Source: Blautia sp. AF19-10LB (GTDB lineage Bacteria > Bacillota > Clostridia > Lachnospirales > Lachnospiraceae). Taken from it: a stretch of DNA of 64,000 nt. Of this stretch, positions 33,069 through 48,465 are shown piece by piece; position 1 is the first letter of the stretch, and each line of letters begins with the position of its first letter. A program made the translations under genes and the position numbers. The stretch is from positions 203,496 to 267,495 of the forward strand of contig NZ_QTWS01000001.1 of assembly GCF_003461245.1 (NCBI RefSeq), in the 5' to 3' direction. Below the pieces are notes generated by a model, which saw nothing but the letters and a program-made list of their open reading frames with translations, was not told where the DNA came from and made no database searches.

Positions 33069-33089
33069 TGGAGGTGATGAAGCATCAAT

Positions 33090-33824
33090 ATGGTTTCCTA
33101 TGGGGGCGGCGCCAACAGCACCGCCCTTTTAATCGGGCTGCACCAGCACCGTATCCCGGTGGACCTGATCCTCTTTGCGGATACGGGGGCGGAGCATCCC
33201 CATACCTATGCCTATCTGGAGGTGATGGATTCCTGGCTGAAGGACCACGGGATGCCGCCCATTACCAGAGTGTATAAGACCACCCGTGACGGGAAACGGC
33301 TGACGCTGGAGGATGAATGTCTGCAAAGTTGCAGCCTTCCGTCTATCGCCTACGGCTTCAAGCGGTGTTCCCTGAAACACAAGATCGGGCCGCAAGAAAA
33401 GTTCTGCAACCATTACCCGCCGTGTCAAAAGGCGTGGGCGGCGGGCAAACGGGTGGTCAAATTCATCGGCTACGATGCGGGCGAGGGCTACCGCAGCGAC
33501 AAGGTTCTGCTGGGCGACCTGGCCGACCGAAAATACAGCAAGTGGTATCCCCTAATGGAATGGGGATGGACGCGGGACGATTGCATCCGGCAGATCGAGG
33601 CGGCAGGGCTGCCCCAGCCGGGAAAATCGTCCTGTTTTTTCTGCCCCAGCATGAAACCCGACGAGATCACCGCCCTGCGGGAGCAGCATCCCGATTTGTT
33701 CCGCCGCGCCCTGGCGCTGGAGGACAACGCCCGGAAAAACCTGAAAACGGTCAAGGGCCTGGGGCGGAACTATTCCTGGAGAGAACGATTTGGAAAGGAG
33801 TTTTGCACACATGGCAACGGTTGA
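33090..33824 (+). CDS. PP-loop ATPase, PAPS-reductase/DndC-like
   Basis: Protein of 244 residues with an N-terminal PP-loop (VSYGGGANSTALL), the nucleotide-binding motif of the PAPS reductase/adenine nucleotide alpha-hydrolase-like family. Cysteine clusters follow (CSLPSIAYGFKRCS, CNHYPPCQ, SCFFCPSMKP), which could bind Fe-S or zinc. Similar proteins occur in phages and mobile elements, and DndC, which works in DNA phosphorothioation, has the same fold. No other dnd genes are present. GGAGGTG is about 13 bases before ATG 33090, a long spacing, so the start is not certain. Confidence 0.78.
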   Translation: MVSYGGGANSTALLIGLHQHRIPVDLILFADTGAEHPHTYAYLEVMDSWLKDHGMPPITRVYKTTRDGKRLTLEDECLQSCSLPSIAYGFKRCSLKHKIGPQEKFCNHYPPCQKAWAAGKRVVKFIGYDAGEGYRSDKVLLGDLADRKYSKWYPLMEWGWTRDDCIRQIEAAGLPQPGKSSCFFCPSMKPDEITALREQHPDLFRRALALEDNARKNLKTVKGLGRNYSWRERFGKEFCTHGNG

Positions 33825-34101
33825 GAAAATCCGCAAGGACATTGAAAAGACGAAGGAGAAGATTTCCGCCCAGCAGAAGCGCCTTCGGGAACTGGAGGCG
33901 CAGCTCACCGAGGAAGAAAACCTGGAGATCGTCCGCATGGTCAAGGCGGTGCGTATGGACAACAAGGAGCTGACCGCCTTCCTGAAGGCCTACGCCAGCG
34001 GCCTTATCACCCTGCCCGACGGGATGATGGAGGCGGAGGCAGCGGCTGACACCGACGACGAGGATGTGGAAGGAATGGAGGATGGCGAAGATGAAGCGTA
34101 A
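33811..34101 (+). CDS. DUF4315 family protein
   Basis: Protein of 96 residues with a charged coiled-coil N-terminal half (TVEKIRKDIEKTKEKISAQQ) and an acidic tail. This is the DUF4315 pattern found next to DUF4366 genes in Tn1549-like ICEs. AAAGGAG precedes ATG 33811, and the gene overlaps both neighbours. The function is unknown; its constant position suggests a transfer accessory. Confidence 0.82.
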   Translation: MATVEKIRKDIEKTKEKISAQQKRLRELEAQLTEEENLEIVRMVKAVRMDNKELTAFLKAYASGLITLPDGMMEAEAAADTDDEDVEGMEDGEDEA

Positions 34102-34789
34102 CAGAGTTTTCCGCCTTCTGGCGTCCTTGACGGTGGTGGTCCTGTGCATGACCGCCTTTTCCGTCACCGCCTTTGCGGGCGGCGGGGATGGAGACTATTA
34201 CACCGGGGAGCCCGCCGAGACGACCCCGGAACCCACCGAGGAACCGGCCACCGGAGGCATGGAGCCGGAGGGCCAGCCCCTTACCCCGGAGGGCAACGCC
34301 ACGCTGGTGGACGATTATTACGGCGATAAGCAGCTTATCACCGTGACCACAAAAGCGGGCAACTATTTTTACATCCTGATCGACCGGGCAAACGAGGACA
34401 AGGAGACCGCCGTTCACTTCTTGAACCAGGTGGATGAAGCTGACCTGATGGCGCTGCTGGAGGACGGACAGACGGAGGAACAGCCTGCGGCTTGTACCTG
34501 CGCCGAGAAATGCCAGGCCGGTGCGGTGAATACTGCCTGTCCGGTCTGTTCGGTGAATATGAGCGAGTGTGCCGGAAAAGCGCCGGAGGTGGAGCCGGAG
34601 CCTGAACCGGAGCTGGAGAAGGAGTCCGGCAGCGGCGGAGCCCTGGTGCTGATCCTGCTGCTGGCGGCCCTGGGCGGCGGCGGAGCCTTTGCCTACATCA
34701 AGTTCATCAAGCCCAAGCAGAGTGCAAAGGTCAGCGCCGACCCGGACGATTATGAGTTTGAGGACGAGGAATACGAAAACGAGAACTAA
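34091..34789 (+). CDS. DUF4366 (CD1107-type) mobile element surface protein
   Basis: Predicted cell-surface protein of 232 residues. It has a signal peptide (FRLLASLTVVVLCMTAFSVTAFA), a proline/glutamate-rich linker and a conserved domain (DKQLITVTTKAGNYFYILID). A cysteine-containing segment, a transmembrane helix (GGALVLILLLAALGGGGAFAYI) and an acidic cytoplasmic tail follow. This is the CD1107/DUF4366 layout. I chose ATG 34091 because GGAGG lies 9 bases upstream. Its role in conjugation is unproven; mating-pair contact is a guess. Confidence 0.85.
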   Translation: MKRNRVFRLLASLTVVVLCMTAFSVTAFAGGGDGDYYTGEPAETTPEPTEEPATGGMEPEGQPLTPEGNATLVDDYYGDKQLITVTTKAGNYFYILIDRANEDKETAVHFLNQVDEADLMALLEDGQTEEQPAACTCAEKCQAGAVNTACPVCSVNMSECAGKAPEVEPEPEPELEKESGSGGALVLILLLAALGGGGAFAYIKFIKPKQSAKVSADPDDYEFEDEEYENEN

Positions 34790-34820
34790 ATTGTAAAAAA
34801 CTTGCTGCATAAGAATAATA

Positions 34821-34852
34821 AAAGCACCAGCGTTTAAGGCACTGGTGCTTTT
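34821..34852 (+). terminator. Terminator after the DUF4366 gene
   Basis: 10-bp stem AAAGCACCAG with CTGGTGCTTT and T-run; it may also serve the opposing gene. Confidence 0.85.
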
Positions 34853-34859
34853 CTGCCGC

Positions 34860-35213
34860 TTAGGTTCTGTATTCTTCTGGATTTATATCATTAAATTTCA
34901 GATTGTAAAGCAGATCAGTCAAATCTTCAATGATAAGGTGGACTATAAAAATCAAGCCATTATTATTGATTCCTCTAACTCTGGCCTCATTTTCGCTTAC
35001 ATATTTTTCTTTTAAAATACCGTTCACATCAGGAATTGTGTCTGGTGAAACATTGATGTTTTTAAAGCCGCACTTTGTCGCAATAAGTTGAACAATAGAG
35101 CCGTTCTCTATGCTTTCACAAACCGTATCAATCGGCAACGACTGGCCCTCATCAATCATTCTCAACAATTCTTTAGCAAAAAATCCCAATTGAGCAAATG
35201 TTGCAGTTTCCAT
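34860..35213 (-). CDS. Hypothetical protein on the opposite strand of the transfer region
   Basis: Protein of 117 residues (METATFAQLGFFAKELLRMI at the start). I do not recognise it. It has no signal peptide or membrane helix. A good Shine-Dalgarno (AAGGAG) lies before ATG 35213. It is AT-rich and runs against the GC-rich transfer operon, so it is probably a recent passenger. Size and setting would suit an immunity or anti-defence protein, but nothing in the sequence shows that. Confidence 0.65.
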   Translation of the reverse strand: METATFAQLGFFAKELLRMIDEGQSLPIDTVCESIENGSIVQLIATKCGFKNINVSPDTIPDVNGILKEKYVSENEARVRGINNNGLIFIVHLIIEDLTDLLYNLKFNDINPEEYRT

Positions 35214-35298
35214 AAGTCAACATTCTCCTTCAAAACTTGGTGTTTAATTAAAATGATAGCATATCAAAAAATTTCAGTCAATGTAAAGGAGGCATCTT

Positions 35299-37398
35299 TT
35301 GAAACTTGTAGTTTGTGAAAAGCCGAGTGTAGCAAAGAGTATCGCATCGGCCCTGGGTGTCACATCCAGGGCCGATGGCTATTTTGAGGGCGGCGGTTGG
35401 CTCATTTCCTGGTGCATCGGGCATCTGGTGGGGCTGGCGGATGCGGCCGCCTACGATGACCGCTACAAGAAATGGCGGTATGAGGACCTTCCCATCCTGC
35501 CTGACCCCTTTCGCTATGTGGTGTCCGAGGAAAAGGCTGACCAGTTCCACGTTCTCCGTTCCCTGATGGAGCGCCCTGATGTGACGGAGCTGGTCAACGC
35601 CTGCGACGCGGGACGCGAAGGTGAGCTGATCTTCCGGCTGGTCTATGAGGCTGCCGGATGTTCCAAACCTTTCTCCCGCCTCTGGATTTCTTCGATGGCG
35701 GACGCGGCGATCCGGGAGGGCTTTGCCAACCTGCGCCCCGGTAAGGACTATGATCCTCTGTATCAGTCGGCACTTTGCCGCCAAAAGGCGGACTGGCTTA
35801 TTGGTATCAATGCCTCACGGCTCTTTTCGGTGTTGTATCATCGAACGTTAAATATTGGGCGGGTGCAGACGCCCACCCTGGCGATGCTGGCCGACCGGGA
35901 CGGTAAGATCGTCCTGTTCCGCAAGGAGAAATACCATCATGTGCGGCTGGCGCTGGAGGGAGCCGAGGCGGTCAGCGACCGCATTGTTTCCCCGGAGGAC
36001 GCCCAGGCCATCCAAAACGCCTGTGAGGGGCAGCGGGCCGTGTGTGTATCCCTGGCGCGGGATAAAAAGACGGAAAGGCCACCCAAGCTGTACGACCTGA
36101 CCACCTTGCAGCGGGAGGCAAACCGGGTATTCGGCTACACGGCCAAGCAAACCCTGGACTACGCCCAGTCGCTCTATGAAAAGAAGCTGTTGACCTATCC
36201 CCGGACGGACAGCCGATATCTGACCGAAGACATGGCGGAGACCGCCTCCGTGGTCCTGCATCTGGCGGCGCGGGTGCCGCCCTTCGACGCCTGCCCGGAG
36301 TTTTTCCCTGATGTTCTGACGCTGGTGAACGACAAGGAGGTATCCGACCACCACGCCCTGATTCCCACCCTAGAGCTGGAAAAGGCGGATGTGCCTGCGC
36401 TGCCTGTGGGCGAGCGCAATATCCTTCTGATGGTCTGCTGCAAGCTGCTGTGTGCGGCAGCGGAGCCTTTTGTGTATGAGACGGTCACGGCCACCTTTGA
36501 TTGCGGTGGCCGCACTTTCACGGCAAAAGGAAAGCAGGTGCTTTCCCAGGGCTGGCAAGCCATCCAGGAGGTGTTCCGTTCCTCCCTGAAGGAGAAGCCG
36601 GAGGATGAAGATACCGAGGGTGTCCTTCCCGCCTTGACCGAGGGGCAGGTCTTTGAGCCGGTCTCCGCCTCCGTCACCGAGCACTTCACTTCGCCCCCCA
36701 AGCCCTACACCGAGGACACCCTTCTGTCGGCTATGGAGAACGCGGGCAAGGAAGATATGCCGGACGAGGCAGAGCGCAAGGGCCTGGGCACCCCGGCGAC
36801 CAGGGCGGCCATCATTGAAAAACTGGTGTCCGGCGGATTCGTGGAGCGCAAGGGCAAAAACCTGATCCCTACAAAGGCGGGTGTCAACCTGGTCACGGTA
36901 CTGCCGGAACTGCTGACCTCTCCCAAACTCACAGCGGATTGGGAGCAGCGGTTGAACGAGGTGGCAAAGGGCCAGGTGTCGCCGGAGGACTTCATGGACG
37001 GGATCGAAGCAATGGCGGCGGAGTTGGTGCGGAAATACTCCCACATTTCCGAGGATGGGCAAAAGCTGTTCCAGCCGGAGAAGGAGACGGTAGGCCTGTG
37101 CCCCCGCTGCGGCAAGCCGGTCTATGAGGGCAAGAAGAACTTCGCCTGTTCGGACCGGGCCTGTCAGTTTGTCATGTGGAAGAATGACCGTTTCTGGACC
37201 AGCCGCCGCAAGGAAATGACCCGGAAGATTGCGGCCGACCTTCTGAAAAAGGGCCGTACCTCCGTCAAGGGGATGTGGTCGGAGAAGAAAGGCTCCACCT
37301 ATGACGCTGTGGTAATCCTGGACGATACCGGCGGCAAGTATGTCAATTTCAAGCTGGAGTTTCCCAAACGAAAGGATGGTGTGCATGGCAAAAAGTAA
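35299..37398 (+). CDS. topB: DNA topoisomerase III
   Basis: Type IA topoisomerase of 699 residues that relaxes or decatenates DNA during element transfer or replication. The TOPRIM domain is visible (KLVVCEKPSVAKSIASALG and ACDAGREGELIFRL). The active-site region LLTYPRTDSRYLTEDM carries the catalytic tyrosine, and the C-terminal CPRCGKPVYEGKKNFACSD is a zinc ribbon. It starts with TTG 35299 after AAAGGAGG. Such TopB homologues are standard in Tn1549-like ICEs. The next gene overlaps its end by 14 bases. Confidence 0.95.
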   Translation: MKLVVCEKPSVAKSIASALGVTSRADGYFEGGGWLISWCIGHLVGLADAAAYDDRYKKWRYEDLPILPDPFRYVVSEEKADQFHVLRSLMERPDVTELVNACDAGREGELIFRLVYEAAGCSKPFSRLWISSMADAAIREGFANLRPGKDYDPLYQSALCRQKADWLIGINASRLFSVLYHRTLNIGRVQTPTLAMLADRDGKIVLFRKEKYHHVRLALEGAEAVSDRIVSPEDAQAIQNACEGQRAVCVSLARDKKTERPPKLYDLTTLQREANRVFGYTAKQTLDYAQSLYEKKLLTYPRTDSRYLTEDMAETASVVLHLAARVPPFDACPEFFPDVLTLVNDKEVSDHHALIPTLELEKADVPALPVGERNILLMVCCKLLCAAAEPFVYETVTATFDCGGRTFTAKGKQVLSQGWQAIQEVFRSSLKEKPEDEDTEGVLPALTEGQVFEPVSASVTEHFTSPPKPYTEDTLLSAMENAGKEDMPDEAERKGLGTPATRAAIIEKLVSGGFVERKGKNLIPTKAGVNLVTVLPELLTSPKLTADWEQRLNEVAKGQVSPEDFMDGIEAMAAELVRKYSHISEDGQKLFQPEKETVGLCPRCGKPVYEGKKNFACSDRACQFVMWKNDRFWTSRRKEMTRKIAADLLKKGRTSVKGMWSEKKGSTYDAVVILDDTGGKYVNFKLEFPKRKDGVHGKK

Positions 37399-37921
37399 AG
37401 CCGAGGTCAACTTCATGGAGCATTTGAAACCGCTGCTCCCCGCAGGTGGTGACGCAAGCGAGCTGGAGGCAGCGGCCCAGACACTTGCCGGACTTCCCCC
37501 GGAGGACCGCGACCTCCTGGCCGCTGTCCAGGAGTCGCCCTATCGCCTGACGACTCTGGAGCAGTTCCGGGAGTTCCCCGCCAACACCGAGTATTTTGTC
37601 CTGGAGCCCAACATCCGCAAAGTGGAGGATGTGGGCTGGCGCTATCTGGCGCAGCATTTGGACGTCCTTCTGCCCCCGGAGCTGCTGGACGCCATTGATC
37701 CCGTTCCCTTCGGCAACCACGCCATGCAGGAGGAACAGGGGTGCTTCACCAGTAAAGGGTATCTCACCCTTTCCGGCGACGAGTGGGAACATGAGCGCCC
37801 CAGAGAGAGGCAGACGGAGAAAAAGCCCTCTATCAAGGAGCGGCTGGAACAGAGCCGGAAGGAATGTGCCAATCAGAGCAGGGCGCAGCCCCATCGGGAA
37901 AAGCCTGCGCCGGAGCGATAA
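37385..37921 (+). CDS. Conserved ICE protein between topB and ardA
   Basis: Protein of 178 residues starting at ATG 37385 inside the end of topB. No domain is recognised with confidence. It has an acidic helical N-terminal half (LEAAAQTLAGLPPEDRDLLA). The tail (KKPSIKERLEQSRKECANQ) resembles the tail of the downstream ArdA-like protein (KKPSIRERLEDAKRECAER) and part of PcfB (KKPSIRKELEQAKQQ). That shared tail may be a common interaction or targeting motif among these ICE proteins. Confidence 0.68.
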   Translation: MAKSKAEVNFMEHLKPLLPAGGDASELEAAAQTLAGLPPEDRDLLAAVQESPYRLTTLEQFREFPANTEYFVLEPNIRKVEDVGWRYLAQHLDVLLPPELLDAIDPVPFGNHAMQEEQGCFTSKGYLTLSGDEWEHERPRERQTEKKPSIKERLEQSRKECANQSRAQPHREKPAPER

Positions 37922-37933
37922 GGAGGTGTCGCT

Positions 37934-39793
37934 ATGCCCCATTATGACTATGACAAAGATTATCCCTTTTCCGCTTTCATCACCAACCTGGGCAAATACA
38001 ACGAGGGCGCCCTTGTGGGCGAATGGGTGAAGTTCCCCACCACGGCGGAGGAACTGAAAAAGGTCTTTGAGCGCATCGGGATCGGTGCGAAGGACGACTT
38101 CGGGCAGACCTATGAGGAATGGTTCATCACGGACTACGACTGCTATGTGGATGGCCTCTATGACCTGTTGGGCGAGTACGCCAACCTGGACGAGCTGAAC
38201 TACCTGGCCTCCAAACTGGACGACATGAGCCAGGATGAATACGAGCGGTTCCAAGCGGCCATGGAGATCGGCGACCACACGGGCAGCATCCAGGAACTTA
38301 TCAACCTGACGGAGAACCTGGACTGCTACGACGTTTACCCCGACATCCACGACCACGACGATCTGGGCCGGTATTACATCGAGGAACTGGACGCCATGCA
38401 GGTGCCGGAGCATCTGCGCAACTACATCGACTATGAGGCCTACGGACGGGACATCGCCCTGGAGGAAAGCGGCCAGTTCACCGACCTGGGCTATGTGCGG
38501 GATACCGGGGACAGTTTCCATGAGTATTACGATGGCGAGCGCGGCAGCATCCCGGAGGAATACCGGGTGATGACCTTCCAGGACGACATCCCTGAAGAAG
38601 AAATTTCGGAATGGGCCATGGACCTTGCCTACGATATGGACGAGTTTTTCCGGCAGAACGATCCGCAGTATGCCGCCGAGCACCCGGAGGAACATGCGGC
38701 GAAGGAAGAAATCTACGAGAACCTTTCCGATTGCCGCATTGCCTCTCTGGAAGAAAAGCTGAAGGCGTTGGGCCAGACCCCGGAGGACTACCTTCCCTCC
38801 GAGTTGGAGAAGTTCAAGGAGGCTGTGGGCTACGAGGCATATTTGGATGTGGACCCGCAGGTGATCCGGGAGGCCATTGAAAACCCGAATCAGTCCCATG
38901 TGGACGAGATGCTGGCCTTTGCGGAGCAGGCAAACCGGGAGTATGAGGCGGAGTTGTACGGGCAGCAAGCGGCGCCTACCCCGGATGACCGAGAGACCGG
39001 CGAGACGGTGCGGACCCCCAGGGGCACCTTCCATGTGACGGATATGAGCCGGGAACAGATGGAAGCAGCCGGATACGGTTTCCACCACGAGTCCGAGGAC
39101 GGAAAGTATCTCATCATGGCCAACGGCAGCCGCGCCTTTGCCATCCCCAGCGGAGACGCACCCGAACATACCGCGCCGGAGAAATTGACTGTCCTGGTGG
39201 TGGAGCCCATGAAGGAACCCTATGTGAAGGAGATCGACCCCGGCCTCCATGCGCTGCAAGCGGAGGTGGGCGGCGACATTGCCGCCTCCTATCCCTTTGA
39301 CGATCCGGTGGGGCTGGTGCTGAACGATGAAGGCAAGCTCATCGGTCTGGACCTGAACCGCTCCCTCCGGGACGAGCATGGGGAGATTTACGACATCGTG
39401 GCGGGCACCTTCCTGGTGGTGGGCCTGGGGCCGGAGAGCTTCGCATCCCTGCCCCCGGACATGATCCAGAAATACACCGAGCAATTCAAGCGGCCGGAGC
39501 TGTTCGCCAGCATCAACGGGCAGATCGTGTCCGTTCCCGTGGAGCCGGAAAACCCGCTGCGCACGGCGGAAATGACCCTGGAGGATGACTACGGCATGAT
39601 CGACGGGATCATCAACAACGGCCGCCGTGGTGAGGAATTGCAGAAAGCCCAGACCGAGGCGCGCAGGACCACGCCGGAGAAAAAGCCTTCCATCCGGGAG
39701 CGACTGGAGGACGCAAAACGGGAGTGCGCGGAACGGAAAAGCCCGGACAAGCCTGCCCCGCAGAAGAAGCCCCCGGAGCTGGGCGACTTATGA
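37934..39793 (+). CDS. ardA: ArdA antirestriction protein fused to DUF3846-like domain
   Basis: Acidic protein of 619 residues. The N-terminal about 165 residues match ArdA, a DNA mimic that blocks type I restriction enzymes (FITNLGKYNEGALVGEWVKFP, ITDYDCYVDGLYDLLGEYANL). A middle helical region and a further conserved domain follow. The DUF3846-like stretch is KEIDPGLHALQAEVGGDIAA with DPVGLVLNDEGKLIGL. The tail carries KKPSIRERLEDAKREC. Normal ArdA is about 165 residues, so this is a multidomain fusion, common in Clostridia ICEs. AGGAGG precedes ATG 37934. Confidence 0.85.
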   Translation: MPHYDYDKDYPFSAFITNLGKYNEGALVGEWVKFPTTAEELKKVFERIGIGAKDDFGQTYEEWFITDYDCYVDGLYDLLGEYANLDELNYLASKLDDMSQDEYERFQAAMEIGDHTGSIQELINLTENLDCYDVYPDIHDHDDLGRYYIEELDAMQVPEHLRNYIDYEAYGRDIALEESGQFTDLGYVRDTGDSFHEYYDGERGSIPEEYRVMTFQDDIPEEEISEWAMDLAYDMDEFFRQNDPQYAAEHPEEHAAKEEIYENLSDCRIASLEEKLKALGQTPEDYLPSELEKFKEAVGYEAYLDVDPQVIREAIENPNQSHVDEMLAFAEQANREYEAELYGQQAAPTPDDRETGETVRTPRGTFHVTDMSREQMEAAGYGFHHESEDGKYLIMANGSRAFAIPSGDAPEHTAPEKLTVLVVEPMKEPYVKEIDPGLHALQAEVGGDIAASYPFDDPVGLVLNDEGKLIGLDLNRSLRDEHGEIYDIVAGTFLVVGLGPESFASLPPDMIQKYTEQFKRPELFASINGQIVSVPVEPENPLRTAEMTLEDDYGMIDGIINNGRRGEELQKAQTEARRTTPEKKPSIRERLEDAKRECAERKSPDKPAPQKKPPELGDL

Positions 39794-39966
39794 GCCGGAG
39801 CAAGAAATGGCGTCTGGAATGGGCGTTCTTCCTGGGCGAGAACGGCAGGCGTCAGTATAACAAGCTCTGCAAAGGCTGCGTTCATCCCTGCAAGCAGAGT
39901 TTCCGGGCGGTGGTGTTGTCCTGTCCGCACTATCTTTCCCTCCGTTCCAAAAAGTGCGGGAATTAG
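39790..39966 (+). CDS. Small cysteine-containing ICE protein
   Basis: Protein of 58 residues beginning in an ATGA overlap with the ArdA gene. It is basic, with cysteines in CKGCVHPC and later SCPHY and KKCG, which could bind a metal. No known family is recognised. It is the last gene of the large transfer operon before a strong terminator. Confidence 0.6.
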   Translation: MSRSKKWRLEWAFFLGENGRRQYNKLCKGCVHPCKQSFRAVVLSCPHYLSLRSKKCGN

Positions 39967-40096
39967 GGTTCAAAACAGGCGAAGAAACAGCCTGTGGCGG
40001 CTTTTCCGTGTAGGGGCAGTATGATTTCCCATGTGGAGCGGCAGGGTGTTTCTGCATAGGAAAAACGCCGGATTTTCACCTTTTATCAAGCAAAAT

Positions 40097-40151
40097 GGGA
40101 GCGTCAACATCGGATGCAGTTATCCGAGGTTGGCGCTCCCATTCTTTTTTT
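40097..40151 (+). terminator. Strong terminator ending the transfer operon
   Basis: A near-perfect 19-bp stem (40097-40115 with 40122-40140) with a short loop, then a run of seven T. Confidence 0.9.
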
Positions 40152-40173
40152 GTTCTGGCTGCGTCGCAGTCGA

Positions 40174-40404
40174 TCAGTCATCCTCTAACAGCTTGGAGGG
40201 TGGGATTTTCAGCACTTGGGCGATCTTGAACAATGTTTCAAGAGATACGCCACGAACCGTACCTGTTCCTTCTACCTGACCAACGAAGTTGACACTTTTC
40301 CCGATCCTCTCCGCAAGGACCTCCTGTGTCATCCCCGCCTTTTTTCTGTAATATGCGATCTTCAAGCCCAAAGTGATATAGCGTTCTGGAAACTCCGTTT
40401 GCAT
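40174..40404 (-). CDS. XRE-family HTH regulator
   Basis: DNA-binding protein of 76 residues with a Cro/CI-type HTH (LGLKIAYYRKKAGMTQEVLA, ERIGKSVNFVGQVE). It is divergent from the SLOG-domain gene. The intergenic space contains a 14-bp direct repeat around that gene's promoter, a likely operator. A GGAGGTGATATT site lies before ATG 40404. It probably represses the divergent gene, itself, or the transfer operon. Confidence 0.88.
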   Translation of the reverse strand: MQTEFPERYITLGLKIAYYRKKAGMTQEVLAERIGKSVNFVGQVEGTGTVRGVSLETLFKIAQVLKIPPSKLLEDD

Positions 40405-40467
40405 AATATCACCTCCTGATATTATGCTACCAACAAAACAGGTAAATTATAATTGAAACCAATTAGA

Positions 40468-40523
40468 GGATTATTTACTTTAAGTCAATGATTGTATATA
40501 ATGAGAAGTGGATTATTTACTTT
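40468..40523 (+). promoter_or_regulatory. Promoter with 14-bp direct-repeat operator
   Basis: TTTACT (40474-40479), 17-bp spacer and TATAAT (40497-40502). The sequence GGATTATTTACTTT occurs at 40468-40481, overlapping the -35 box, and again at 40510-40523, at the expected start of transcription. This suits a repressor site for the divergent XRE protein. Confidence 0.75.
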
Positions 40524-40561
40524 GTTGGAGAGGCTGGCTTGAAAATGGCGAAGATAGAACC

Positions 40562-41047
40562 GTGAACATATTTACCGTTAGTTTTTTTGGACACAGGATC
40601 ATCCCGGAGTTTCGTGAGGCGGAGGATCGTGTGGAGGCGCTGGTTCATGCGCTGCTTTTGGAAAAGGAGTATGTGGAGTTCCTGGTCGGACGGGACGGAG
40701 ATTTTGACCAGATCGTTTCCTCCGCTGTCAAACGCCAGAAGCGGATTGTACGAGATGACAACAGTTCCTTGATTTGGATACTGCCATATCCCACGGCGGA
40801 GTTACACAACAATACGGAAAACTTTGAAGCCTATTATGATGAAATCGAAATATGCGGCAGCGCGGCCAGCAGCCACCCGAAAGGTGCTTTTCAAATTCGC
40901 AACCGGCAGATGGTGAAGCGAAGCGATCTCGTTGTATTCTATGTGGACCATACAGGCGGCGGAGCTTATCAGACCATGCGCTATGCGCAGAAAGAAAAAA
41001 AGAATATACTAAATCTTGCTGGGGAAGGATACGGAGAAAAAGAATGA
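40562..41047 (+). CDS. SLOG-family protein (DUF1273/YpsA-like)
   Basis: Protein of 161 residues. The N-terminus VNIFTVSFFGHRIIPEF and the later SDLVVFYVDHTGGGAYQTMRYA resemble the SLOG Rossmann-like superfamily, which binds nucleotide ligands. I prefer GTG 40562: the ATG at 40508 lies before the expected transcription start. A six-codon ORF (MAKIEP, from ATG 40545) ends in a TGA overlapping this GTG and may couple translation. SLOG proteins occur in some nucleotide-signalling defence systems, but no effector partner is seen here. Confidence 0.72.
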   Translation: MNIFTVSFFGHRIIPEFREAEDRVEALVHALLLEKEYVEFLVGRDGDFDQIVSSAVKRQKRIVRDDNSSLIWILPYPTAELHNNTENFEAYYDEIEICGSAASSHPKGAFQIRNRQMVKRSDLVVFYVDHTGGGAYQTMRYAQKEKKNILNLAGEGYGEKE

Positions 41048-41080
41048 GCGCCATCATCTTTCGGTGATGGCGCTCATTTT
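41043..41080 (+). terminator. Terminator containing the SLOG gene stop codon
   Basis: 14-bp perfect stem (AATGAGCGCCATCA with TGATGGCGCTCATT) and T-run; the stop codon at 41045-41047 is in its first arm. Confidence 0.92.
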
Positions 41081-41243
41081 CAGTAGCAGTAGTAGGTGCT
41101 GTGGGAATGTGTGTAAACGGTCAAAGGGGCGGAGCTGTGGGAAACAATGTTTGCGGGCTGTGGGAAAGCTGACAGCTTTTCCATCGGGCCGTGAATATTT
41201 GTTTTCCATCGGTGAAGCGGCCGTTTTCCACATTTCCATAGTG

Positions 41244-41597
41244 CTATTCTGGGATATAGGAAGTCCCTCTTGTTATGAACAGTCGATAGATGGTCAAGGG
41301 AATATACCAGGCAGACACCAGCAGTCGCCAGACCAGGACGAAACCGCCAATCACTCCGCCAATAATAAAGTTCAGCAGAAACAACGGAAGGGCGGTTCCC
41401 AAAGAGCCGCCCGGCACGATCCAGGCAAACATCCGTGGGATGCCAAAAGGCAGACCGCAAAGGATGAACAGCCATACATAGTCGGTGACTCCATCTTTTG
41501 TGCAGGCGGATTTGAAAATGCAGTACAGCAAAGCCGCCACCGCCACGGGCAGCACGCTCTTTTTGAAAAACTCTTTGATTACTTCGGATTTCGTCAC
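41244..41597 (-). CDS. Small membrane protein (DUF6050-like)
   Basis: Membrane protein of about 117 residues with about three hydrophobic segments (SVLPVAVAALLYCIF, YVWLFILCGLPFGIP, PLFLLNFIIGGVIGGFVLVW). GTG 41597 is preceded by GGAGGTG at good spacing, so I prefer it to upstream ATGs. It lies downstream of the relaxase gene on the same strand and is probably in the mobC-relaxase transcript. The family name is given from memory; the function is unknown. Confidence 0.65.
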   Translation of the reverse strand: MTKSEVIKEFFKKSVLPVAVAALLYCIFKSACTKDGVTDYVWLFILCGLPFGIPRMFAWIVPGGSLGTALPLFLLNFIIGGVIGGFVLVWRLLVSAWYIPLTIYRLFITRGTSYIPE

Positions 41598-41689
41598 AGT
41601 CAGCACCTCCATTCCTGGTTCCATTATATCAGCCGGATAACCATGCGCCCAGGGGTTTTGCAAAGACTGTCAAAAGCGCCCAATCCCCG

Positions 41690-43039
41690 TTACTCCAAGT
41701 CGTTGCTCCGCTGCCGCTGCTGTTCCTGTTCCTTCGGCCTTTCCAGCAGGGCGTCCACATTCTGGCGGAGGGTGTCATATTCCTTTTCCTCCCGTTGTAT
41801 CTTCCGAAGTTCCGTTTGCAGGGCGGCCTTGCGGGCGGAGAGTCCTTCCAGTTCTGCTTTCACCTTATCGGAGGAAGGAAGTTTGGTGAGTCCGGCCTTT
41901 TTGATCTCCCTGGCTGCCGCCTCGAATAAGATGATCTCGCTCTCAAAGCCGCGCAGGAATTTTTCCTTGTCCTTTGATGCCTTGTATCGGTCATAGACAG
42001 GTTTCAGCTTGCGGTAGGTGTCGATCTGCTTTCCCAGAAGGGCATGGTCGGCGATCCGTTGTTCCGTATCCCGCAGGCTTTCCCTGGTACGGATGGAGGC
42101 GGCGGCAACGGCGTCGCACCGTTCCACCAATTCCTCATAGCTGCCGATGCCGTGTTCGGTGAGAAAGTTCATGGTAGCGGCCGCACGTTTCAGATTCTCA
42201 ATGGTTGCCCACCGCTGGTATCCGGCGTTCTGCTGGGCCTTGATATTGTTCTGAATGTCAATGAGCAGGCTGACCCTCCCGCTGCGTTGCCGGGGCTGTC
42301 TGGAGGGGCGGGGGCCTCCGGCAATGCGGGAGACAACGGCTTCTTCCGTGTAATCGGCGCCCAGGGTTTTGAGCCGGGTGAACCTTTCCTGGTCCGGCGC
42401 CCTGGCGGAGATATACTTTCCTCGCTTGATTTCGTACCCTTCCCGCTGCAACCGGGCAAGCAAATCTTCCAGGCTGGAGGACACGGGGATCAGCCGGTCG
42501 ATGGCGGCTTTCAGCTTTGCCTTGTAACTGGTGCCGTTCTGTGCGGCCTGATGCTCAATGTAGCTCTTACCCTTATCCCGGCCAGGGACGATGACGGATA
42601 AGCCGTGTTCTTTACACAGCCGGTCGCTGGCCCGGCGTATCTCGTGATAGCTGCGCTTGTTGGAATGGTAGTGCTTGTGGTCGGTGAAGCTGACCGCATT
42701 GAAAATCAGGTGATTATGGACGTGATCCTTGTCAATGTGAGTGGTGAGGACGAATTCATATTTGCCGCCCAGGACCTCCCGTGCCAGTTCCATGCCGATC
42801 CGGTGGGCTTCCTCTGGCGACACCTCCCCAGGCTCAAAGGCTTGGATCAGGTGGCGGCCCAGGTGTGTGCCCTTGTCAATAGCATGGCGGCGTGTCCATT
42901 CAAATTCAATGTCGGCGGTCTCGGCGGCGCAGCCGAAGGAGGACACCAGCAGTTTCCCATCCGTCTTGTCGGGGTTGCAGATATAGTCAATCGCCGCTTT
43001 CAGCGTTGACTTAATAGGATGCGTCTTTGTAACTGCCAT
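41690..43039 (-). CDS. MobP-type relaxase of the ICE
   Basis: VirD2-like relaxase of 449 residues that should nick the ICE oriT. The N-terminus (VTKTHPIKSTLKAAIDYICNP) and the metal motif THIDKDHVHNHLIFNAVSF are characteristic. The C-terminal half is helical and charged, ending in a glutamine/arginine-rich tail. Its start overlaps mobC by 40 bases, giving the usual mobC-relaxase unit. The order oriT-mobC-relaxase on the minus strand is that of Tn1549-type elements. Confidence 0.9.
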   Translation of the reverse strand: MAVTKTHPIKSTLKAAIDYICNPDKTDGKLLVSSFGCAAETADIEFEWTRRHAIDKGTHLGRHLIQAFEPGEVSPEEAHRIGMELAREVLGGKYEFVLTTHIDKDHVHNHLIFNAVSFTDHKHYHSNKRSYHEIRRASDRLCKEHGLSVIVPGRDKGKSYIEHQAAQNGTSYKAKLKAAIDRLIPVSSSLEDLLARLQREGYEIKRGKYISARAPDQERFTRLKTLGADYTEEAVVSRIAGGPRPSRQPRQRSGRVSLLIDIQNNIKAQQNAGYQRWATIENLKRAAATMNFLTEHGIGSYEELVERCDAVAAASIRTRESLRDTEQRIADHALLGKQIDTYRKLKPVYDRYKASKDKEKFLRGFESEIILFEAAAREIKKAGLTKLPSSDKVKAELEGLSARKAALQTELRKIQREEKEYDTLRQNVDALLERPKEQEQQRQRSNDLE

Positions 43040-43329
43040 ATCTGATCCAGCCTTTCCCGGATTTCCTCCATGTCGGCCTGATAGGTGGGACCTCCGGCGT
43101 TGACTCGTTTGGCGATCTGATTGATGTTCCGGCCAATGGCGGACAGGAGCTTGTTCATCTCCTTGATGTCCCTGGTGTCCACCTGGATGATATATCCGTC
43201 AATCGCCATCTTCCGCAGGTAGGCGCCCATCCTCTTTGTCTGGAGCTGAGCCATCTTCTGTTCCATCAGTTCCTTTTCCTCGGCGGTCACATAGAACTTC
43301 ACCTGGATATTTCGTTTTCGGTTTGCCAT
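43000..43329 (-). CDS. mobC: MobC relaxosome protein
   Basis: DNA-binding relaxosome accessory of 109 residues. The N-terminal ribbon-helix-helix-like part (KRNIQVKFYVTAEEKELMEQ) and the conserved AIGRNINQIAKRVNAGG are the MobC family signature. It helps open oriT for the relaxase. It overlaps the relaxase start and begins just after the oriT region. Confidence 0.9.
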   Translation of the reverse strand: MANRKRNIQVKFYVTAEEKELMEQKMAQLQTKRMGAYLRKMAIDGYIIQVDTRDIKEMNKLLSAIGRNINQIAKRVNAGGPTYQADMEEIRERLDQIWQLQRRILLSQR

Positions 43330-43354
43330 CGTGGTATCTCGCCTCTTTTCGTAT

Positions 43355-43445
43355 CAGGGTTTGGGATGTTCCCAACAAGCATTTTTCGGGTTTAGGGAGA
43401 GGGTTCCCTAAAGCCAAAAATCGCAAGCGGGTACTCGCTTGCTGT
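43355..43445 (-). other. Candidate ICE oriT with three inverted repeats
   Basis: Three palindromes lie upstream of mobC: TTGGGA with TCCCAA (43361-43375), TTTAGGGA with TCCCTAAA (43391-43412), and GCAAGCG with CGCTTGC (43423-43442). This cluster resembles Gram-positive oriT regions. The nick position is not assigned. Confidence 0.7.
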
Positions 43446-43569: not shown

Positions 43570-43932
43570 TTAATCCTCTGCTTTTTCGACTTCCGTTATC
43601 TCCCTTGCTGTTGCGGTTACAATCCGTATGCCTTTATCGCTCATACCGTCCAGCAGCGCGTCAAGCTGCCGCCGCCCGGTGGATTTCTCCGCATTGCTGT
43701 TCGGGAAGAAAAATTGATCTACCGAAATATGATACCGGGTTACAAGGTCATAGAATACCTGTAAACTCGGCTGTTGTCCCTTGTTCTCGATATTCGCAAG
43801 GTAGCGCGGGGAAATATATAACTCGTCGCTTACCTTTTTGCGGCTCTCGCCGTATTCATTTCTCGCGGCTTTTATAGCTGCCCCGAAAGCCTTAAAGTCG
43901 TACAATGGTACGGGTCTTTTTGCCATTTTCAT
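43570..43932 (-). CDS. XRE-family regulator, Tn916 Orf9-like
   Basis: HTH protein of 120 residues (KVSDELYISPRYLANIENKG is the recognition region, then QQPSLQVFYDLVTRYHISVD). In position and direction it matches Orf9 of Tn916, the repressor facing away from the orf7-orf8 genes. Here cargo and an IS lie between it and those genes. It probably controls the recombination or transfer regulators of the ICE. Confidence 0.8.
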   Translation of the reverse strand: MKMAKRPVPLYDFKAFGAAIKAARNEYGESRKKVSDELYISPRYLANIENKGQQPSLQVFYDLVTRYHISVDQFFFPNSNAEKSTGRRQLDALLDGMSDKGIRIVTATAREITEVEKAED

Positions 43933-44019
43933 TCACCCTGTTACATTTTACAGTTCACCTTTCTTTTTGGATATGTCCACACAATTCATATCATTAGGTT
44001 AAATACTTCCTGTTGTGTA

Positions 44020-44048
44020 TTGACAGTAGACTGATTTTCTGATAAAAT
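44020..44048 (+). promoter_or_regulatory. Consensus promoter of the KTR/Cfr-like module
   Basis: Perfect TTGACA at 44020-44025, 17-bp spacer, TAAAAT at 44043-44048. It drives the leader ORF and, past the terminators, the methyltransferase genes. Confidence 0.9.
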
Positions 44049-44076
44049 AAAATTTATGTAAAAGGAGGCGGCGTTT

Positions 44077-44103
44077 ATGTTGCATAGCATGCGTATTAGA
44101 TAA
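44077..44103 (+). CDS. Leader peptide MLHSMRIR
   Basis: An eight-residue ORF with a strong AAAGGAGG site, ending 20 bp before a terminator-like hairpin. I recall the same leader upstream of tet(W)-type genes. Such leaders sense antibiotic-stalled ribosomes and relieve attenuation. Its role here is inferred from this layout. Confidence 0.72.
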   Translation: MLHSMRIR

Positions 44104-44123
44104 GCATTGAAAAAAAGGATTTT

Positions 44124-44147
44124 CCCATTTTCAACATGGGCTTTTTT
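44124..44147 (+). terminator. Leader-proximal attenuator
   Basis: Short stem CCCAT with ATGGG, then CTTTTTTG. It lies directly downstream of the leader ORF and is a candidate attenuator. The stretch from 44148 to 44255 has no gene but has self-complementary A/T-rich parts. Confidence 0.7.
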
Positions 44148-44255
44148 GTCATGCTTATTTTGCGGATGCTATACAAAAAACTAACGACGTATAGATATAG
44201 TATAGACATAGTGCAAGCTATGCCTTAGTTTTGTTGTACTGCTCTGTGCATTATA

Positions 44256-44301
44256 AATGCAGGTCAATGCTCATGTTGAGGATTGACCTGCATTTTTTTG
44301 T
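44256..44301 (+). terminator. Second terminator before the KTR gene
   Basis: 13-bp perfect stem (AATGCAGGTCAAT with ATTGACCTGCATT) and TTTTTTT, 24 bp before the KTR gene start. Without readthrough control it would block expression of the two genes after it. Confidence 0.9.
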
Positions 44302-44324
44302 GTAAAAAGGACGAGTGAAATATA

Positions 44325-44510
44325 ATGCTTAAAAAATATTGGATAAAATGTCCGATTTGTAACGGAAAGACGAGAGTTCAAGTATTTCATAATACTGTAT
44401 TAAAAGATTTTCCTCTTTTCTGCCCTAAATGCAAATTGACGCATATCATTGATGTAGAAAAATTAGAGATTGTAATCAAAAATACAGAAAAACAAACTTT
44501 TATTATTTAG
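44325..44510 (+). CDS. Cysteine-rich KTR zinc-ribbon protein
   Basis: Protein of 61 residues with paired cysteines (CPIC at 9-12 and CPKC at 33-36) around GKTRVQVFHNT, the KTR-domain pattern. It is probably a small zinc-binding protein. From memory, such proteins often accompany resistance genes such as ribosomal protection genes. It is 16 bp upstream of the methyltransferase and likely cotranscribed. It is AT-rich, unlike the ICE backbone. Confidence 0.85.
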   Translation: MLKKYWIKCPICNGKTRVQVFHNTVLKDFPLFCPKCKLTHIIDVEKLEIVIKNTEKQTFII

Positions 44511-44526
44511 AAGAAAGGATATAAAA

Positions 44527-45510
44527 ATGAAACGTTTACCTAAATATACGCCTGCGGAAGTACGGAATGATCCATACGGATTTACTTACAAAGAAATGTC
44601 GGAAGTTATTGGCGAGAATGAAGCAAAAGCCTTATATGAAGAATTATATAAGCAATTACCACGCAAAAAAAATCTATCAATGTTGGTAAAAAATATTTGC
44701 AAAAGCAGTGATACTGAAAAGTATGTTTACGAACTGAAAGACAACAAATACATTGAAACGGTTTTTATCAAGCGGCGAGATGGTGGAACTGTTTGCGTGA
44801 GCACACAAGTCGGTTGTCCTGTTGGTTGTATTTTTTGTGAGTCCGGGCGAAATGGCTTTGTTCGTAATCTAACATCGTCAGAAATCGTACAACAGATTAT
44901 ATTGTTGCGTCGAAAAGTAAACCGTATCGTTTTTATGGGTATGGGAGAGCCTTTATTCAATTATGACAACTTGATAAAAGCAATCCATATTCTCCGAGAT
45001 AGATATGGGCTCAACTTTCCAACCGACGGCATTACCATATCAACAGTTGGTCCGGTCGATCAATTAAAAAAATTGCGCGAGGAACATCTTAAAATTCAGT
45101 TGACAATATCTTTACACGCAGCAACACAATCTGCAAGAAATCGTATTATTCCTCACATGCGCATATATGCTATTGAAGATGTTGTTAAGCAAGCCTTATC
45201 CTATTCTGAAAGGCATAATCGCAAAATTGTCTTTGCGTATTTGCTTTTACCGGGTATAAATGACCGGCCCTCAGATGTAAGACAACTTGCAAAATGGTTT
45301 CGGGGCAAAAAAGTTATGATTAACGTGTTACAATACAACCCAACAAGCAATTCAAGAATTAAAGCACCACAGAAACGGGAAATAGTTGCATTCAAACATC
45401 AATTAGAGCAAGCAGGACTTGAAGTTACTATGAGAGTTTCTCATGGCAGAGAGATTAACGCGGCTTGTGGACAGTTAGCTAACACATATAATAAATTCAA
45501 AAAAAAATGA
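44527..45510 (+). CDS. RlmN/Cfr-family radical SAM rRNA methyltransferase, divergent
   Basis: Radical SAM enzyme of 327 residues in the family that methylates A2503 of 23S rRNA: RlmN at C2 (housekeeping) and Cfr at C8 (resistance to several peptidyl-transferase drugs). The iron-sulfur motif is C97, C101, C104 (CPVGCIFC). The two catalytic cysteines are conserved as C90 (VCVSTQVGC) and C314 (INAACGQL). FMGMGEPLFNYDN and YLLLPGINDRPSD are family motifs. It is about 20 to 50 residues shorter than most members at the N-terminus, and it matches neither typical RlmN nor the Cfr sequences I recall. Its location behind an attenuated leader suggests resistance. AGAAAGGA precedes ATG 44527. Confidence 0.88.
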   Translation: MKRLPKYTPAEVRNDPYGFTYKEMSEVIGENEAKALYEELYKQLPRKKNLSMLVKNICKSSDTEKYVYELKDNKYIETVFIKRRDGGTVCVSTQVGCPVGCIFCESGRNGFVRNLTSSEIVQQIILLRRKVNRIVFMGMGEPLFNYDNLIKAIHILRDRYGLNFPTDGITISTVGPVDQLKKLREEHLKIQLTISLHAATQSARNRIIPHMRIYAIEDVVKQALSYSERHNRKIVFAYLLLPGINDRPSDVRQLAKWFRGKKVMINVLQYNPTSNSRIKAPQKREIVAFKHQLEQAGLEVTMRVSHGREINAACGQLANTYNKFKKK

Positions 45511-45538
45511 TTAAAAGTGCCAGACGCATAGACGCAGA

Positions 45539-45586
45539 GCCGATAACGCATTAGGTCAAAAAACCTATGTGTTATCGGCTTTTTTA
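45539..45586 (+). terminator. Terminator of the Cfr-like gene
   Basis: A long stem (GCCGATAACGCATTAGGT with its near-complement ending TTATCGGC) and TTTTTT. Confidence 0.9.
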
Positions 45587-45607
45587 TTTAATATTGCGCA
45601 AAAGCCG

Positions 45608-46954
45608 GGTCAGGTAGAATAAGTTTCGCAAAAAGACAAAGAGACATGGTTTGCAGATGTCTGGTAGAATGAAGTTGCGACACCACCATTCGAAAGGAGA
45701 CAGCAAACCATGTCCGAAAAGATTGTACAGCTAAACGAAGAAGTTATCAAGGGGCAGCTCAAGGAACTTGTGCGCGGAAGCGTAGAGGAAACCCTCAACG
45801 AGCTGCTGGAGGCCGAAGCGGAGAAGCTGACCCAGGCGGCCCGGTACGAGCGCAATGAGCAACGCCAGGGCTACCGCAGCGGCCACTACAACCGCAACCT
45901 TACCACCACTTCTGGGGATGTCACACTCAAGATGCCCAAGCTCAAGGGGATCTCCTTTGAGACTGCCATCATTGAGCGGTATCGCCGCCGGGAGAGTAGC
46001 GTGGAAGAGGCTCTCATTGAGATGTACCTGGCTGGCGTATCCGTCCGGCGTGTAGAGGATATTACCGAGACTCTCTGGGGCAGTAAGGTCTCTCCCTCCA
46101 CCATCAGTGAGCTGAACAAGAAAGCGTATGTCCACATCGAGGATTGGCGTAACCGTCCTCTGCAAGGCGGGCGGTATCCGTATGTCTATGTGGATGGGAT
46201 CTATCTGCGCCGCAACTGGGGTGGAGAGTTTGAAAATGTGGCCATCCTGGTGGCAATCGCGGTCAATGAGGACGGATATCGTGAGGTTTTAGGTGCCGCC
46301 GAGGGCATGAAAGAGGACAAGGCCAGTTGGATCAACTTCTTCCAGTGGCTGCGTGGCCGTGGCCTGGACGGCGTGAAACTCATCGTTGGAGATAAGTGCC
46401 TTGGTATGCTGGAGGCCGTGGGCGAAGTGTTCCCTGAAGCCAAATACCAACGCTGCACCGTCCACTTTTACCGTAATGTGTTCTCTGTCACACCTCGCTC
46501 CAAGGTGAAACTGGTAGCCAAAATGCTCAAGGCGATCCACGCCCAGGAGAGCAAAAAAGCCGCTCGTGAAAAGGCCAGGGCCGTAGTGGAGGAGCTGTGT
46601 TCCATGAAGCTGAAAGAGGCTGCTAAGAAGGTGGAGGACAGCATCGAGGAGACTCTGACCTATTGTGATTTTCCCAGTGAGCATTGGACCCGTATCCGCA
46701 CCAACAATGTCATTGAGAGGCTGAACCGGGAGATCCGCCGCCGTACTCGTGTAGTGGGCAGCTTCCCGGACGGCAACTCTGCCCTTATGCTGGTCTGTGC
46801 CCGGCTACGCCATGTAGCTGGCTCCCAGTGGGGCAACAAAAAGTACATGAATATGAAGCACCTGGAGGCCGCCATTGAGGATGCCTCCATTGCCGGCTGA
46901 CTCCATTCATGCCAGAGCTTGCAAACTAAAGTGCGAAAAAATCTTGACACGACC
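45608..46954 (+). mobile_element. IS256-family insertion sequence with 8-bp target duplication
   Basis: A 1347-bp IS. The ends are imperfect inverted repeats of about 23 bp sharing GGTC and TTTCGCA. Both flanks carry AAAAGCCG (45600-45607 and 46955-46962), an 8-bp target duplication typical of IS256. It lies between the Cfr-like gene's terminator and the orf7-like leader. Confidence 0.93.
45710..46900 (+). CDS. IS256-family (mutator) transposase
   Basis: Transposase of 396 residues with the IS256/mutator layout. The N-terminal DNA-binding half contains YRSGHYNRNLTTTSGDVTLK and AGVSVRRVEDITETLWG. DDE-type residues are in PYVYVDGIYLRRNW and VKLIVGDKCLGM, with a glutamate near the C-terminus (NNVIERLNREIRRRTRVVG). 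It appears intact, so the IS may still be active. GGAGAC-type sequence precedes ATG 45710. Confidence 0.95.
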   Translation: MSEKIVQLNEEVIKGQLKELVRGSVEETLNELLEAEAEKLTQAARYERNEQRQGYRSGHYNRNLTTTSGDVTLKMPKLKGISFETAIIERYRRRESSVEEALIEMYLAGVSVRRVEDITETLWGSKVSPSTISELNKKAYVHIEDWRNRPLQGGRYPYVYVDGIYLRRNWGGEFENVAILVAIAVNEDGYREVLGAAEGMKEDKASWINFFQWLRGRGLDGVKLIVGDKCLGMLEAVGEVFPEAKYQRCTVHFYRNVFSVTPRSKVKLVAKMLKAIHAQESKKAAREKARAVVEELCSMKLKEAAKKVEDSIEETLTYCDFPSEHWTRIRTNNVIERLNREIRRRTRVVGSFPDGNSALMLVCARLRHVAGSQWGNKKYMNMKHLEAAIEDASIAG

Positions 46955-47018
46955 AAAAGCCGCTGTTCCCTATTATAGAATGGATTGCGGGTAGTGTATT
47001 AAAGTCGCCCTTTTTTAA

Positions 47019-48002: not shown

Positions 48003-48465
48003 CTCTTTAAGCCCATGCGGGGAGCGTATACCCCTTTCCACGCTTCCCGTTATGGGCTGTTTGTCGTTCCGTAAAAGCATATCGGAAACGGTATGTTTTT
48101 ACAGGCTGACAAAGCCTTATTGTTCCTTGACAAAGAAAGCCTTCGGGCAGCATAAGGCAGACGGATACAATTTGTCTGTGTGGAGCCGGTCGGCCGGTGC
48201 GCCATGACCCTGTTGCAAGTCCGCAGGACGGGACCCCTACCAAACAGGTGAGCGACAAAACCAGGCCGCAAAACAGGTGTGGCAACCTGTGGGCGAGGAT
48301 ACGCAGACAGGATAATGAGACTCCCGCGTTGAACGCCCTCAAAGCATTGCGCGGCGCACCCATCAGCATGGGCCGGGGTGAGATTCCCGTGGAGCTGCGG
48401 CCAGCAGCCGTCCGTTTTCTGCCTCTTTTATGGTTTTAATGAAATGGCATGAAAGGGGCCTTATT
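48003..48465 (+). other. Structured non-coding stretch before TnpW and the recombinase
   Basis: I see no convincing gene in these 463 bases. They begin with a double-stemmed hairpin (AGCCCAT 48010-48016 with ATGGGCT 48052-48058, inside it CGGGGAGCGT with ACGCTTCCCG). Further self-complementary parts follow, such as ACAGGT with ACCTGT and CCCAT with ATGGG. It could be a structured RNA or a control leader for the recombinase. Confidence 0.5.

Follow-up and report, generated by a model that had tools for sequence, protein, structure and literature searches.

The macrolide resistance methyltransferase gene mrmA in a Blautia conjugative element, probably behind a macrolide attenuator of the mef/erm(K) type

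The locus described here raises the question of what a nine-codon leader and two terminator-like hairpins might control in front of a radical S-adenosylmethionine (SAM) methyltransferase gene of the RlmN/Cfr superfamily, within an integrative and conjugative element (ICE) of Blautia sp. AF19-10LB. The window analysed is a stretch of 64,000 nucleotides (contig NZ_QTWS01000001.1, positions 203,496 to 267,495), in which the original prediction had seen an undescribed, ribosome-sensed resistance system with an enzyme of A2503 type. The promoter, the leader open reading frame (ORF) encoding MLHSMRIR, the two hairpins, the cysteine-rich KTR gene and the radical SAM gene were all present at the places where they had been predicted. 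With a probability of roughly 85%, the module is the published gene mrmA together with a small KTR gene, in an operon behind a macrolide attenuator of the mef/erm(K) type, carried as cargo by a conjugative element.

Sequence comparison indicates with high probability that the radical SAM gene is mrmA, for macrolide resistance methyltransferase A. The gene-specific parts of both published mrmA cloning primers were found exactly in the window gene, at offsets 3 and 961 of its 984 bases, the forward primer lying just past the start codon and the reverse primer in the last codons. The predicted mass of the untagged product was 37.7 kDa, and the published band is at 40 kDa. The name MrmA was given to an RlmN-type methyltransferase of Clostridioides difficile Tn6110/Tn7806 (PMC11983580, Emerg Microbes Infect 2025). 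According to the main text of that report, expression of mrmA in an efflux-deficient (tolC deletion) Escherichia coli K-12 raised the minimum inhibitory concentration (MIC) of erythromycin 512-fold (from 2 to 512-1024) and that of streptogramin B 4-fold (64-128 to 1024 in the table), with no rise for tylosin, pristinamycin IIA, clindamycin, tiamulin, linezolid or chloramphenicol. As reported there, these MICs describe a spectrum of 14-membered macrolides and streptogramin B. The same text gives erythromycin MICs above 256 mg/L for ermB-negative mrmA carriers and places mrmA on Tn6105, an element which, by the account in PMC3158075, is present in C. difficile strain R20291. An independent hint at a macrolide role comes from an earlier machine-learning study, in whose text resistance to azithromycin and clarithromycin is predicted by a region of Tn6110 lying 136 bp downstream of a 23S rRNA methyltransferase (PMC5037627). 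No paper on mrmA besides PMC11983580 was found in the open PubMed Central (PMC) literature, and the strings "leader", "attenuat", "regulat" and "KTR" had 0 occurrences each in the main text of that paper. The enzyme is already known, and its control by an attenuator is apparently undescribed in the open PMC literature, supplements being outside this scope. Because the gene is the published mrmA, with MICs unlike those of Cfr, the locus is not an undescribed Cfr-like system.

Homology strongly suggests that the leader region is a macrolide attenuator, as it matches Rfam family RF02862 (sRNA_1300, "Enterococcus sRNA 1300"; Table 1). This family was surveyed with Infernal, under stricter filters, in 299 genomes of the phylum and 14 control genomes; matches were obtained in 8 of the 299 (6 of them above the cut-off) and in none of the 14 controls. 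Ten places were reported, and after one weak opposite-strand match to another place had been set aside, nine forward places were followed downstream. The genes behind them encoded Mef(A) above the NCBIfam cut-off (three places), an Msr ABC-F protein above the cut-off (three), a Mef-like pump below the cut-off (one), MrmA (one) and a 75% identical MrmA homologue (one). The leaders read at these places were MTASMRLR (twice), MYSVRLR, MYSIRLR, MHSIRLR, MNPMYSVRLR, MLHSMRIR and MLHSIRIWK; at the ninth place no leader was recognised. As described in the text of PMC4335068, MTASMRLR is the Mef(E) leader, on which the induction of mef(E)/mel by macrolides through transcription attenuation depends in Streptococcus pneumoniae, and MRLR is the stall site of Erm(K)L. 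Considering the RF02862 match and the R-x-R endings of the leaders, the proposal of a ribosome-sensed attenuator before an rRNA-methyltransferase-type resistance gene is probably correct. The leader may also hint at the nature of sRNA_1300, located by the text of PMC5593968 in an Enterococcus faecium genomic island, and suggests a macrolide attenuator common to pumps, ABC-F proteins and a methyltransferase.

The upstream regions of the mrmA family comprised 20 entries, of which 8 were duplicates. A leader pattern composed once the first leaders were known (a short ORF preceded by a Shine-Dalgarno sequence and ending R-x-R, with one extra Lys permitted) matched 7 of the 12 distinct upstreams, compared with 0/101 RlmN/Cfr-type control upstreams and 3/2000 shuffled upstreams. 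The matching leaders were MLHSMRIR in the window and in loci L085, L006, L087 and L005, MLHSIRIRK in L007, and MIINFMRIR, a different leader preceding a 63% mrmA homologue, in L002; MLHSMRIR was also present in L001. In a blastn search with the leader, the only plasmid matches were records of Subdoligranulum and Monoglobus, and no match was obtained among phages. Mef-type genes were found within 2 kb upstream of the mrmA genes of L138 and L002 and, by eye, of L086. In L138 (reverse complement, approximately 6880-9180), the mrmA leader is interrupted by a mef cassette, which carries a terminator-like leader of its own, recognised by eye; the insertion places a Mef-type pump directly ahead of mrmA.

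Several observations weigh against the proposed assignment. The identity of mrmA is based on primers, length and mass, and not on the sequence of the reference protein WP_002584956.1. The gathering score of RF02862 was exceeded by a small margin only (49.5 against 48.8 bits, E 4e-8 over the window). Five of the 12 distinct upstreams were without an R-x-R leader: in L110 a mef cassette is inserted within the mrmA leader, the leader of L134 is the degenerate MLHSIRIWK, no leader was found upstream of the genes of L008 and L088, and the fifth is L086. In L085, which carries an identical mrmA gene, the leader and the first terminator-like hairpin (T1) are kept and the second (T2) is replaced. T2 is thus not conserved in every copy, since other DNA stands in its place. 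In simulated folding, the pairing probability of T1 stayed at 0.89-0.99 when the ORF alone was blocked (to 44103); blocking as far as 44106-44115 lowered it to 0.19-0.69, and T2 remained paired in all blocked folds tried. The antitermination step is therefore unexplained by simple folding, as only blocking past the ORF weakens T1 and T2 is never weakened. In an alignment of seven leaders (six distinct), 88.6% of the window pairs were kept, against 37-48% with the partner strand slid, a retention which is partly expected because the structure was derived from the window. Covariation in the hairpins was not significant, with two both-side pair changes, a number reached by 38/500 shuffles, and a score reached by 132/500, and is therefore not claimed as proof of the hairpins.

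Two replacements were noted in passing. In L085 (5515-5771), approximately 257 bases with inverted repeats and strong folding (z -4.7) stand between the leader and the KTR gene in place of T2 and appear by eye to be a small non-autonomous insertion. In L086 (2699-5835), an 86% mrmA homologue is preceded by a Mef-type gene, a transposase-like ORF and a short ORF resembling a class A beta-lactamase, all named by eye, and the beta-lactamase-like fragment takes the place of the leader and the start of the KTR gene.

Table 1. Features of the mrmA module, in positions of the 64,000-nucleotide window
Feature	Position	Strand	Basis
Sigma-70-type promoter, TTGACA-17-TAAAAT	44020-44048	+	Consensus scan, 11/12 positions
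Ribosome-binding site of leader ORF, AAAAGGAGG	44060-44068	+	Sequence
Leader ORF, MLHSMRIR-stop; predicted macrolide arrest peptide	44077-44103	+	ORF reading, relatives
Candidate attenuator RNA, match to Rfam RF02862 (sRNA_1300)	44079-44300	+	49.5 bits
Leader hairpin; 5' arm includes most of the leader ORF	44080-44110 paired with 44149-44176	+	Folding
Terminator-like hairpin T1, CCCAT/ATGGG and CTTTTTT	44124-44147 (hairpin 44124-44140)	+	Terminator scan
Terminator-like hairpin T2 and T7	44258-44299 (hairpin 44258-44292)	+	Folding; outside terminator-scan list
Cysteine-rich KTR zinc-ribbon gene, 61 aa	44325-44510	+	Pfam PF14205, 75.4 against gathering 25.5 bits
mrmA, 327 aa, 984-base gene; RlmN/Cfr-superfamily radical SAM rRNA methyltransferase	44527-45510	+	Primers, family models, trees, predicted fold
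Hairpin and T-run behind mrmA, likely operon terminator	45539-45585	+	Sequence reading alone; outside terminator-scan list
Block with helix-turn-helix (HTH) gene, attenuator, KTR gene and mrmA, 99.86-99.91% identical in L139, L004 and L137	43422-45607	.	Megablast

Promoters of this class are not rarer than chance, with 9 sites found and 6.7 +/- 2.4 expected. Similarly, the class of T1 is not rare, as the terminator scan of 43900-45720 gave 2 hits with 1.0 +/- 0.9 expected. The match to RF02862 and the R-x-R leader pattern, in contrast, exceed chance expectation. T2 folds into a stem of 14 pairs, within which lies a stem of 4 pairs.

The placement of the enzyme was assessed by alignment, family models, predicted structure and trees. 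Both catalytic cysteines and the CxxxCxxC cluster named in the original prediction were confirmed by alignment: C90, C97-x3-C101-x2-C104 and C314 of MrmA aligned with C105/C112/C116/C119/C338 of Cfr and with C118/C125/C129/C132/C355 of E. coli RlmN, and the cluster and the two catalytic cysteines were kept in 34/34 mrmA-group rows. The N-terminus had been called short and unusual. It is shorter than in RlmN and Cfr, but the AlphaFold model (predicted local distance difference test score 90.1) aligned with RlmN-type structures from model residue 10-14 on. The impression that the protein is neither a typical RlmN nor a Cfr held up, as its score with TIGR00048 (RlmN) was 277.6, under the cut-off of 290, and its scores with the NCBIfam Cfr models were 192.9-199.5, against cut-offs of 468-550. 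In all, 13 NCBIfam families matched the protein, none of them a model of MrmA, and its identity to Cfr(A-D) was 30-34%. A quick tree was built from 93 rows (34 mrmA-like, 15 alphaproteobacterial, 4 Cfr and 40 RlmN-type), for which 40 sequences were taken out of 240 database proteins and 39 out of 87 eligible control loci, with one Bacillus RlmN and selected loci added; most RlmN row labels were assigned by similarity. It contained a single mrmA clade (Shimodaira-Hasegawa-like approximate likelihood ratio test 99), a single alphaproteobacterial clade (100) and their union (100), with Cfr elsewhere among the RlmN rows. In a more careful tree of 55 rows, from which 8 RlmN rows on long branches had been removed along with 2 mrmA rows, and in which the mrmA rows were thinned to 13 and the alphaproteobacterial rows to 6, support was 100/100 for each of the mrmA, alphaproteobacterial, mrmA plus alphaproteobacterial and Cfr(A-D) clades, and MrmA did not fall firmly within RlmN. 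The mrmA clade is distinct from Cfr(A-D) and from the sampled RlmN, and has an alphaproteobacterial sister clade. As a clade of mrmA, the alphaproteobacterial rows and Cfr was not rejected by the approximately unbiased (AU) test (p 0.13), the claim that MrmA descended apart from Cfr was dropped.

These results bear on two other views of the enzyme. If MrmA were a new Cfr, methylating C8 of A2503 and giving multidrug resistance of the Cfr type, the shared catalytic cysteines and fold, the carriage on mobile elements including ICEs and the common clade that the AU test allows would all be in keeping with it. The family scores, the position of MrmA outside the Cfr clade and the published MICs led to rejection of this view, which we regard as extremely improbable: a Cfr is expected to confer resistance to clindamycin, tiamulin, linezolid and chloramphenicol, for none of which the main text of PMC11983580 reports a rise, and the Cfr-type role at A2503 originally ascribed to the enzyme is unsupported. 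Furthermore, the residues corresponding to the H90-contact residues S182/R184/R185 of Cfr are P/D/G in MrmA. An RlmN paralogue making m2A2503, or m2A37 in tRNA, and causing macrolide resistance indirectly is unlikely, though less so than a new Cfr. RlmN is the best curated model for the protein, with a score slightly below its cut-off, the best folds are RlmN-type, and three relatives in plasmid records are annotated rlmN. The E. coli host of the published tests presumably retains its own RlmN, and additional methylation of C2 of A2503 should then have little effect, whereas a 512-fold rise in the erythromycin MIC was measured. The position of RlmN R206 also differs, being R in 92% and K in 7% of the 40 RlmN-type rows and D in 88%, N in 5%, S in 2% and R in 2% of the 34 mrmA rows. 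The distribution is patchy as well: the mrmA clade was found in 3/398 genomes of the phylum (E <= 1e-90), whereas superfamily matches at E <= 1e-30 were found in 59/60 relatives, and the two genomes G001 and G312 each encode a protein identical to MrmA in addition to a second RlmN-type gene (37-39% identity). mrmA is an accessory gene and not a near-universal housekeeping gene. The loss in MrmA of RNA-contact residues common to Cfr and RlmN would fit a target other than A2503, but does not prove it.

A third alternative concerns the leader, which might be a generic cargo leader of Tn916 type, in the style of tet(M), with no macrolide sensing. In plasmid records, both tet(M) and tet(S) are followed by a KTR gene, and a leader peptide is annotated for tet(M). 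The KTR protein of the window was 40% identical over 43 aa to that encoded behind tet(M). On the other side, the RNA upstream of tet(M) is given in the text of PMC5593968 as sRNA_0030 and not RF02862, 9/9 forward RF02862 places lie before macrolide-type genes, and the R-x-R endings agree with the mef and erm(K) leaders. A tet(M)-type leader was rejected on account of these three points and is considered very unlikely, slightly more credible than a new Cfr and slightly less so than an RlmN paralogue.

If the operon of mrmA and the KTR gene is indeed governed by a macrolide attenuator, the following sequence of events may be proposed. Transcription would start at the promoter, which is recognised by its consensus alone. 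With no drug present, the ribosome would complete MLHSMRIR, the hairpins would form and most transcripts would stop at T1 or T2. A ribosome carrying a 14- or 15-membered macrolide would stall at the MRIR codons and occupy the 5' arm of the leader hairpin, the RNA would refold and the polymerase would continue into the KTR gene and mrmA. This step is proposed by homology with mef(E), for which leader-dependent transcription attenuation was shown experimentally, as set out in the text of PMC4335068. MrmA, with C90/C314, its CX3CX2C cluster and SAM, would then methylate an adenine of 23S rRNA, and erythromycin and streptogramin B would bind poorly. The resistance itself was seen in E. coli (PMC11983580, main text), the chemistry is suggested by the conserved residues, and the target is probably not A2503. 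No KTR gene was seen in front of the mrmA homologue of L134, so the KTR gene is probably dispensable.

The view that the module is AT-rich within a GC-rich ICE and was acquired separately was borne out by a GC content of 35.4% at 44010-45590, compared with 56.8% at 26000-43400. Its neighbours in the ICE include MobC/relaxase, HTH, sigma-factor and serine-recombinase genes. In L139, L004 and L137, megablast gave no match to the left of the conserved block, and the next matched piece to the right was 92-97% identical. A search for the cargo site in viral contigs with a 38-base probe returned one contig only, the source of L085, which carries mrmA, and PADLOC gave no match. A homologue on a Paraclostridium plasmid lies behind a Mef-like pump (below the cut-off) and an HflX-type GTPase, near tet(P) genes. 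In L002 (1893-4330), an HflX-type GTPase stands directly ahead of the homologue with the leader MIINFMRIR, and the two might be a linked macrolide-resistance pair. On a Rhodobacter plasmid (L003, 7797-8807), the gene for an alphaproteobacterial MrmA sister is flanked by a TetR gene and a LysR gene, and is separated by one gene (LysR) from floR, near tet(G). MphR-like macrolide sensing by this TetR protein was considered and rejected, as its similarity to AcrR/MtrR was weak and well under the cut-offs.

Other features of the window were recorded. An IS256-family transposase gene (45710-46900) lies inside an insertion (45608-46953) that has the 8-base direct repeat AAAAGCCG on either side (45600-45607 and 46954-46961), and L139 is without the insertion at that place. 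Within the ICE there is a match to pemK RNA (Rfam RF02913) at 48312-48392 (45.1 bits, threshold 34.8). A 340-aa ORF with no Pfam match (17102-18121) adjoins a MobA/MobL gene in a low-GC stretch (38.5%, 17001-18000). Towards the ends of the window there are two groups of tRNA genes, three for tRNA-Leu(aag) on the left (3458-3975) and three for tRNA-Glu(ctc) on the right (61370-61740).

A broader view is offered tentatively, at somewhat less than even odds. MrmA might stand for a functional branch of the RlmN/Cfr superfamily beside RlmN and Cfr, carried on ICEs and plasmids of Firmicutes and having its sister clade in Alphaproteobacteria. This third branch would carbon-methylate (at C2 or C8) an adenine of the macrolide/streptogramin B site other than A2503, and in Firmicutes would be induced via macrolide-stalled leader peptides common to mef-type systems. 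To our knowledge, this would be the first drug resistance through radical SAM methylation of an rRNA base besides A2503. The question of the target becomes more testable, because the conserved RNA-contact changes argue against A2503. As the annotated relatives in plasmid records are named rlmN and none of the matching NCBIfam families is an MrmA model, resistance scans may miss mrmA. If the switch functions as proposed, earlier drug exposure should influence how strong the resistance is; if the switch is also present in the published carriers, it does not mask resistance, since ermB-negative carriers exceeded 256 mg/L erythromycin (PMC11983580, main text).

Compared with known systems, the window gene shares with mrmA of C. 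difficile Tn6110/Tn7806 its primer-exact ends, product mass, RlmN-like class and location on a mobile element, and differs in that it lies in the ICE next to a KTR gene and a predicted attenuator, neither of which the main text of the published report mentions. MrmA resembles Cfr(A-D) in its superfamily, catalytic cysteines and mobility, but forms a separate clade, has another resistance spectrum and has lost the H90-contact residues. Unlike RlmN, it scores under the RlmN cut-off, is accessory, is without R206 and has a shorter N-terminal region. Erm enzymes are N6-A2058 methyltransferases, with a fold other than that of MrmA. The erm(K)/erm(D) attenuators are alike in their leader MTHSMRLR, their transcription attenuation and a downstream rRNA methyltransferase (PMC4335068, as described in its text), a likeness drawn via leader peptide and layout. 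The mef(E)/mel attenuator differs in that its leader is MTASMRLR rather than MLHSMRIR and a pump rather than a methyltransferase lies downstream, and folding of the window leader recovered no antiterminator akin to the published dIR1/dIR2 pairing. The likeness to mef(E)/mel and RF02862 lies in the short leader ORF ending MR[L/I]R, a leader arm within a long hairpin, a terminator-like hairpin ahead of the resistance gene, with T2 in a position resembling that of the mef(E) R5/R6 terminator, and an Rfam score above threshold.

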